DNA of 64,000 bases, from positions 2,190,837 to 2,254,836 of the forward strand of contig PTFA01000035.1 of NCBI GenBank assembly GCA_003342895.1. The letters are read 5' to 3'. Numbering within the stretch: the first letter of the stretch is position 1; each line of letters begins with the position of its first letter. The translations under genes and the position numbers were made by a program. Shown here piece by piece: positions 1,235-54,326 of the stretch. The notes under the pieces are model-generated. The model was not told where the DNA came from and made no database searches. It saw only the letters and a program-made list of their open reading frames with translations. This DNA is from Casuarius casuarius. Its lineage: Eukaryota > Chordata > Aves > Casuariiformes > Casuariidae.

Positions 1235-1346
1235 CTTTCAATTCACTGTTAATCTTAGGTGGATCACAGGAAAAAACTTCTTCTGATGTAAATGTGAGAT
1301 CTTCCTCAAATGTCTCAACATGCTGTCCATTTAAAAATAGGTTGAT
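1235..1346 (-). CDS. AtuA-like exon 15 (last in window)
   Basis: 112 bases, residues 443-479 plus one base. The acceptor is at 1,348-1,347 and the donor GTATGT at 1,234. It encodes INLFLNGQHVETFEEDLTF and a following acidic stretch ending in ELK. The phase-1 end requires at least one more exon to the left. This part is less conserved than exons 1-14 and I recognise no additional domain in it. Confidence 0.8.

Positions 1347-54326: not shown

Follow-up and report, generated by a model that had tools for sequence, protein, structure and literature searches.

The window analysed here, a 64,000-nucleotide stretch of contig PTFA01000035.1, carries on its minus strand most of a gene of the AtuA family, whose enzymes are best known from bacteria that feed on plant oils. 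It is a functional, vertically inherited vertebrate gene, and the copy in the window is that of a bird. The encoded protein may be a mitochondrial lyase that releases acetate from 3-hydroxy-3-alkylglutaryl-type thioesters, a tentative proposal held with slightly less than even confidence, for which location, chemistry and substrate class are all inferred. Orthologues already stand in the databases as uncharacterised proteins with a Pfam domain; the gene is not special to this animal, and the window provides one further example of a vertebrate gene that is known but uncharacterised, in a family that is itself known. No paper on the function of vertebrate AtuA was found in the open-access literature, as judged by titles and the beginnings of abstracts, and for this conserved enzyme the bacterial operons and the structure of citramalate lyase suggest concrete substrates. 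The interest of the gene is real, in that its function is testable.

Exons were located by motif search and tblastn with four plasmid-borne bacterial AtuA proteins, after which the splice ends were read. There are 15 exons between 54286 and 1235, every one preceded by AG and followed by GT, with consistent phases; they join into 465 codons without a stop. The same exons were recovered when the orthologues of an owl, a turtle and the chicken were searched against the window by tblastn. The 15 exons and single open frame claimed in the original prediction are thus borne out; of its 479 codons, however, about 13 are intronic, and its upper limit of 54326 gives way to 54286, where coding starts. 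The exons, supported by splice ends and tblastn unless stated otherwise, are as follows:

54186–54286, minus strand: first visible coding exon (PQLLYGGKLDFLVFDYLSEITMSLLTAAKARSP), phase 1 in and phase 0 out
53583–53652, minus strand: coding exon (VLGYTPDFVSTAMAPYIKDIHRK)
52524–52654, minus strand: coding exon with SNAGGINP and AVVAGDD (also motif search)
49940–50028, minus strand: coding exon (KENLKGAGIIDLESGKQFPESIHSMNVYLG)
47354–47453, minus strand: coding exon with TGRCVDSG (also motif search)
46466–46509, minus strand: coding exon (FGWNRDEFDLLAAG)
45197–45274, minus strand: coding exon with LAGHLIECGAQCTGG (also motif search)
34309–34505, minus strand: longest coding exon (HNIGFPIVECSS...VSITEIP)
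31893–31957, minus strand: coding exon (IEGGAVKVHGAKGSPPSKFYK), donor inside a 19-bp tandem duplication (splice ends, repeat search)
28621–28727, minus strand: coding exon (VSATYLDGFRATAVCPVGG...)
25363–25474, minus strand: coding exon (TRLIFSQLGYEDYSAVNIQVLGSEDTYGPHARRSIDG)
18488–18587, minus strand: coding exon (GPREAVIWLAVHHKQKEAVEIFSKEIAAAGTGM)
6861–6900, minus strand: 40-nt coding exon (APGLTGVVGGRPR)
5280–5331, minus strand: 52-nt coding exon (SPVLKPFFFLYPKINVQ)
1235–1346, minus strand: last coding exon within the window (INLFLNGQHVETFEEDLTFTSEEVFSCDPPKINSELK), phase 1 out

Membership in the AtuA family, also predicted earlier, was confirmed far beyond chance by a search of the joined protein against PF07287, where it scores 423.4 bits, well above the gathering cut-off of 22.8 (E=1.3e-126, profile positions 19–434 of 437). 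The protein is 35–50% identical to the four plasmid-borne bacterial proteins. All five motifs quoted in the original prediction are present in it; because GSLAGHLIECGAQC and GTGMAPG cross exon junctions, unspliced frames show only parts of these two. In an alignment of 20 vertebrate and 37 bacterial sequences (A2), every invariant residue within the window's part of the protein is kept (56 of 56), as are 67 of 68 near-invariant residues, the exception being F276, replaced by L. A second AtuA copy or relic was not seen in the window, where the other tblastn matches of full-length searches are weak (E ≥0.004), the strongest being a GC-rich run at 54865–54728.

Although predicted to be intact, the gene is open only as far as it can be read, and both its N-terminal and C-terminal coding parts are absent from the window. 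The stretch 54287–54326 is the end of intron 1, an assignment made because an acceptor, CTAG, is present at 54287–54290 and because the translation differs from RIGCASGFWGDTAAA, the residues that precede VPQLLYGG in other birds. Outside an assembly gap, tblastn found no exon encoding the presequence and RIGCASGFWGDT; this first coding exon, of about 170 nt, would fit into the gap and probably lies there. Two features are of note here:

54327–54625, minus strand: 299-N assembly gap within a GC-rich island, the probable site of the first coding exon, which in other birds encodes the presequence and RIGCASGFWGDTAAA
54626–55100, minus strand: GC-rich stretch (GC 0.61–0.86 in its windows), possibly a CpG-island promoter

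When the first 56 residues of the owl and chicken orthologues were searched against the window, the one sizeable match was that at 54865–54728 to the owl (50% identity, E 2.3e-5 for the piece alone with composition correction off). This match is of low complexity, made up of A, P, R and G, and has neither RIG nor FWGD; it was read as chance and not as the first coding exon. At the other end, coding breaks off in phase 1 at 1235, and tblastn did not find the last ~124 residues of the orthologues in the window, so the gene should continue, with its C-terminal exons below position 1. The C-terminal AtuA_ferredoxin domain (PF23544) is present in orthologues P0002 and P0055 and was not found in the window.

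The bird ancestry of the gene is clear from identity and phylogeny. The joined protein and its Strix aluco counterpart are 93.5% identical across the full 465 residues; the values for duck, chicken and a side-necked turtle are 94.0%, 92.1% and 90.1%. A 41-protein tree places it within the birds (100/100), with a weak link to ducks and fowl (86/60). Because the residues IEGG and FFFLYPK are common to the window protein and a turtle and absent from the bird rows compared, the animal itself may be an early-branching bird. By and large the AtuA gene tree agrees with the species tree; one of the exceptions is the gharial, which stands next to turtles (87/69). In a separate tree of 61 rows the lungfish groups with sharks (97/82). 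Only 30 of 465 residues differ between window and owl, which would be very little for neutral change over the time of bird divergence. In addition, seven of the 120 homologues listed (P0044, P0053, P0059, P0073, P0097, P0107 and P0113) are complete two-domain proteins of 645–677 aa on contigs of 2.1–3.8 kb. Because a gene of more than 50 kb, as here, would not fit unspliced, these contigs look like spliced transcripts of other vertebrates, not of this bird, assuming that introns are present there too. Splicing, the 93–94% identity to owl and duck, the 56 kept residues and the tree agree with the original claim of a functional gene that is neither contamination nor relic.

Comparison of presence and absence, as the original prediction had suggested, placed orthologues from sharks to birds. 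The homologue search gave at least 7995 matches among 7997 scored candidates, 120 of them listed; the listed rows are clusters at 90% identity with one name each, some being nameless. Among the matches listed are birds, turtles, gharial, squamates, amphibians, lungfish, coelacanth, ray-finned fishes, sharks, echidna, marsupials and a few placentals. With a bat protein as query, the placentals named among the matches listed were five bats (Pipistrellus, Pteronotus, two Saccopteryx and Molossus), a mole and a hedgehog, and no primate, rodent, carnivore, hoofed mammal, elephant or armadillo was named among the 120. The gene is likely absent from these latter groups, judging from the sequences named. 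In the 41-protein tree two bats, the mole and the hedgehog cluster together (100/100); two marsupials are their neighbours and the echidna falls outside, which argues for loss in other placentals rather than regain. That the mammals most studied in laboratories are not among the homologues listed would explain the neglect of AtuA. An insect diet was considered as the cause of placental retention; the idea is weak, with no aardvark, armadillo, tenrec or pangolin named among the 120 matches listed. Invertebrate relatives were not named among the matches in three lists of 120, which vertebrates nearly filled. The hedgehog entry (Erinaceus europaeus, P0085) has 535 aa and no AtuA_ferredoxin domain was seen in it; it may be an incomplete isoform or show early decay. 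Some fish and shark homologues (e.g., P0077 and P0079) carry the symbol lratb.1, a retinol acyltransferase symbol, perhaps that of a neighbouring or read-through gene. The symbol raised the idea that the window holds an LRAT gene, which was rejected, as no frame contains the LRAT motif NC[ED]HF.

The location of the enzyme is suggested by the N-termini of its orthologues, the window's own falling in the gap. The stretch before RIG, measurable in 121 of 142 proteins, has a median length of 53 residues with 8 Arg/Lys and 1 Asp/Glu, and such Arg-rich, acid-poor N-terminal stretches are typical of mitochondrial presequences. In bacterial AtuA, FWGD stands 13–16 residues from the start in three of four proteins, the fourth lacking FWGD. 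From these features of sequence we infer that vertebrate AtuA is imported into mitochondria.

The chemistry is approached through structure and through bacterial gene neighbourhoods. The structure model of an orthologue has one clear solved match, citramalate lyase (subunit A, with ADP and pyruvate; PDB 9erq and 9evf). Matches to hydantoinase/carbamoylase and ferredoxin-like structures mostly cover residues 353–471 and were set aside as a common sub-fold. The products of citramalate lyase are pyruvate and acetate (PMC4682846). Because this reaction and that of AtuA both lose acetate from a tertiary hydroxy acid, the same retro-aldol-type cleavage may apply to the vertebrate enzyme. It would be a two-domain mitochondrial enzyme, with an AtuA domain and an AtuA_ferredoxin domain, acting as a carbon–carbon lyase with 3-hydroxy-3-alkylglutaryl-type acyl thioesters as substrates and acetate plus a 3-oxoacyl thioester as products, modelled on the reaction proposed for bacterial AtuA on 3-hydroxy-3-isohexenylglutaryl-CoA. 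The first candidate substrates in vertebrates would be 3-hydroxy-3-methylglutaryl-CoA (HMG-CoA) and prenyl-derived analogues, and the ADP site of citramalate lyase might, as a guess, mark the place of the nucleotide part of CoA.

Bacterial neighbourhoods were taken from the best 80 of 567 relatives in one genome scan (46–52% identity), a sample of near relatives rather than a survey of the AtuA family. Neighbour genes were sought by tblastn with queries from loci L006, L011 and L049, confirmed by Pfam. Carboxyltransferase and biotin carboxylase were each found in 60 of the 80 loci, enoyl-CoA hydratase in 63, acyl-CoA dehydrogenase in 58 and short-chain dehydrogenase in 48. In 59 of the 80 loci both carboxylase subunits are present (49 of 62 when only loci above 17 kb are counted), mostly on the same strand as AtuA. 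Geranyl-CoA carboxylase differs from MCC in carrying Gly at the place of a Phe and in lacking a three-residue insertion (PMC4673880). The carboxylase site motif was found in 43 of the 80 loci, with no match in the other 37; the site is of the geranyl type in 39 of the 43 by script and in three Acinetobacter loci by eye, and that of L059, on the other strand, is of the MCC type. As far as these sequences tell, the neighbour set of the nearest bacterial relatives is mostly the atu gene set, that is, geranyl-CoA-carboxylase operons, as described in PMC4847356 and PMC9973270.

For the relationship to these bacteria, a careful tree of 61 rows was built with arbitrary rooting; eleven rows of a quick tree were dropped, and orthologues stood in for the window protein. 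The 13 vertebrate AtuA proteins form one group (100/100) beside L043 of Acanthopleuribacter pedis (90/95), a pairing also seen in the quick tree, with a Shimodaira–Hasegawa-like approximate likelihood-ratio (SH-aLRT) value of 97. Their half of the tree (87/78) includes every one of the 13 rows that have a geranyl-type site, plus four others. A grouping of the vertebrate orthologues with AtuA of geranyl-CoA-carboxylase operons is thus favoured, though not strictly. The gene row of L043 comprises AtuA, carboxyltransferase, acyl-CoA dehydrogenase, enoyl-CoA hydratase and biotin carboxylase. The plasmid-collection records H1–H3 of Acinetobacter baumannii, at 3.7–4.1 Mb, look like chromosomes.

Several points weigh against an acetate-releasing lyase of the proposed kind. 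The activity of AtuA itself is called 'speculated' (PMC9973270), and a review credits EC 4.1.3.26 to LiuE instead of AtuA (PMC4097962). Geranyl-CoA is not carboxylated by MCC, an enzyme conserved as far as humans (PMC4673880), and the step upstream may therefore be missing in vertebrates. One or both carboxylase subunits were not found in 21 of the 80 loci, some of which are incomplete; the bacterial placement has moderate support and a long vertebrate stem (0.83); and the fold of citramalate lyase subunit A is common to the orthologue model at 17% identity. This last likeness can be taken further, to a free hydroxy-acid lyase that, like CmlA, would cleave citramalate or a C5-dicarboxylate of itaconate/mesaconate metabolism into pyruvate and acetate in mitochondria. 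In its favour, no solved structure other than that of the citramalate lyase subunit with ADP and pyruvate clearly matches the model. DUF1446, the older name of the AtuA family, is borne by one AtuA-like match. A DUF1446 gene lies downstream of mal in a glutamate-fermentation cluster of Enterobacteriaceae, e.g., E. coli O157:H7, where the fate of citramalate is unexplained (PMC4682846). The protein is, however, only 17% identical to CmlA against about 50% to AtuA of the bacterial loci, and its bacterial sister locus has carboxylase, acyl-CoA dehydrogenase and hydratase; we consider this alternative unlikely.

A special case of the acetate-releasing lyase, given about the same low chance, would have it turn mitochondrial HMG-CoA from leucine breakdown into acetate and acetoacetyl-CoA as a side exit beside HMG-CoA lyase. 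Vertebrate mitochondria make HMG-CoA, the smallest member of the 3-hydroxy-3-alkylglutaryl-CoA series, and the bacterial proposal concerns a longer homologue of it; in bacteria, however, it is LiuE, a member of the liu set, that cleaves HMG-CoA. An unforeseen function on the AtuA scaffold, regulatory or another reaction, appears rather improbable: the 56 of 56 checkable residues invariant between vertebrate and bacterial enzymes are kept, although no vertebrate function was found in print and the family serves several pathways, for instance with the AtuA-like lyases ThnQ and ThnS in a gene cluster for anaerobic naphthalene degradation (PMC12016498). A pseudogene, recent bacterial contamination or recent transfer can be credited with hardly any probability, its sole point being that the family is known mostly from bacteria; 15 spliced exons in an open frame, 93–94% identity to owl and duck and a position inside the birds at 100/100 stand against it, and splicing, bird identity and tree rule out recent transfer or contamination.

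If acetate release from branched thioesters is true, it adds a step of isoprenoid or branched-acid breakdown to vertebrate mitochondria, and placental mammals become an example of the loss of a metabolic gene. A bolder and doubtful extension is that most vertebrates keep a mitochondrial terpene-degrading step, in which carboxylated and hydrated 3-methyl-branched prenyl acids, from the diet (e.g., insect or plant isoprenoids) or from their own isoprenoid turnover, would yield acetate and 3-oxoacyl-CoA; it would have been lost in most placentals, probably including humans, and kept in insect-eating bats and moles.

Elsewhere in the window, an exact 19-bp tandem duplication (31867–31904) lies over the donor of the exon at 31893–31957 and creates two identical GT donors 19 nt apart, the second of which, if used, would cause a frame shift and an early stop. 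A TG/TA-rich microsatellite with overlapping periods occupies 50857–51069. Rfam gave no matches at gathering scores, a repeat search of 53500–64000 and a sigma-70 promoter scan of 1–500 found nothing, and NCBIfam gave no family for the four proteins tested.

Among known systems, the closest are the vertebrate orthologues (Gallus LOC100857197, Strix aluco LOC141922892 and the fish and shark lratb.1 entries), which are the same gene, 92–94% identical in chicken, owl and duck over the window's part, with no difference of substance. AtuA of Pseudomonas and relatives, from the atu operon, has the same two Pfam domains in the same order as the orthologues, about 50% identity over most of the protein and the invariant residues in common, whereas the vertebrate gene is split into many exons, has a presequence in the orthologues and lacks operon partners. 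Citramalate lyase subunit A (456 residues) is a distant relative at 17% identity, among which the vertebrate protein is not filed; it matches residues 36–492 of the model only, the ferredoxin-like domain lying outside the match. HMG-CoA lyase (HMGCL, LiuE) would share the 3-hydroxy-3-methylglutaryl thioester type of substrate with vertebrate AtuA, but it belongs to another family, being a DRE-TIM barrel enzyme, and its products are acetyl-CoA and acetoacetate.
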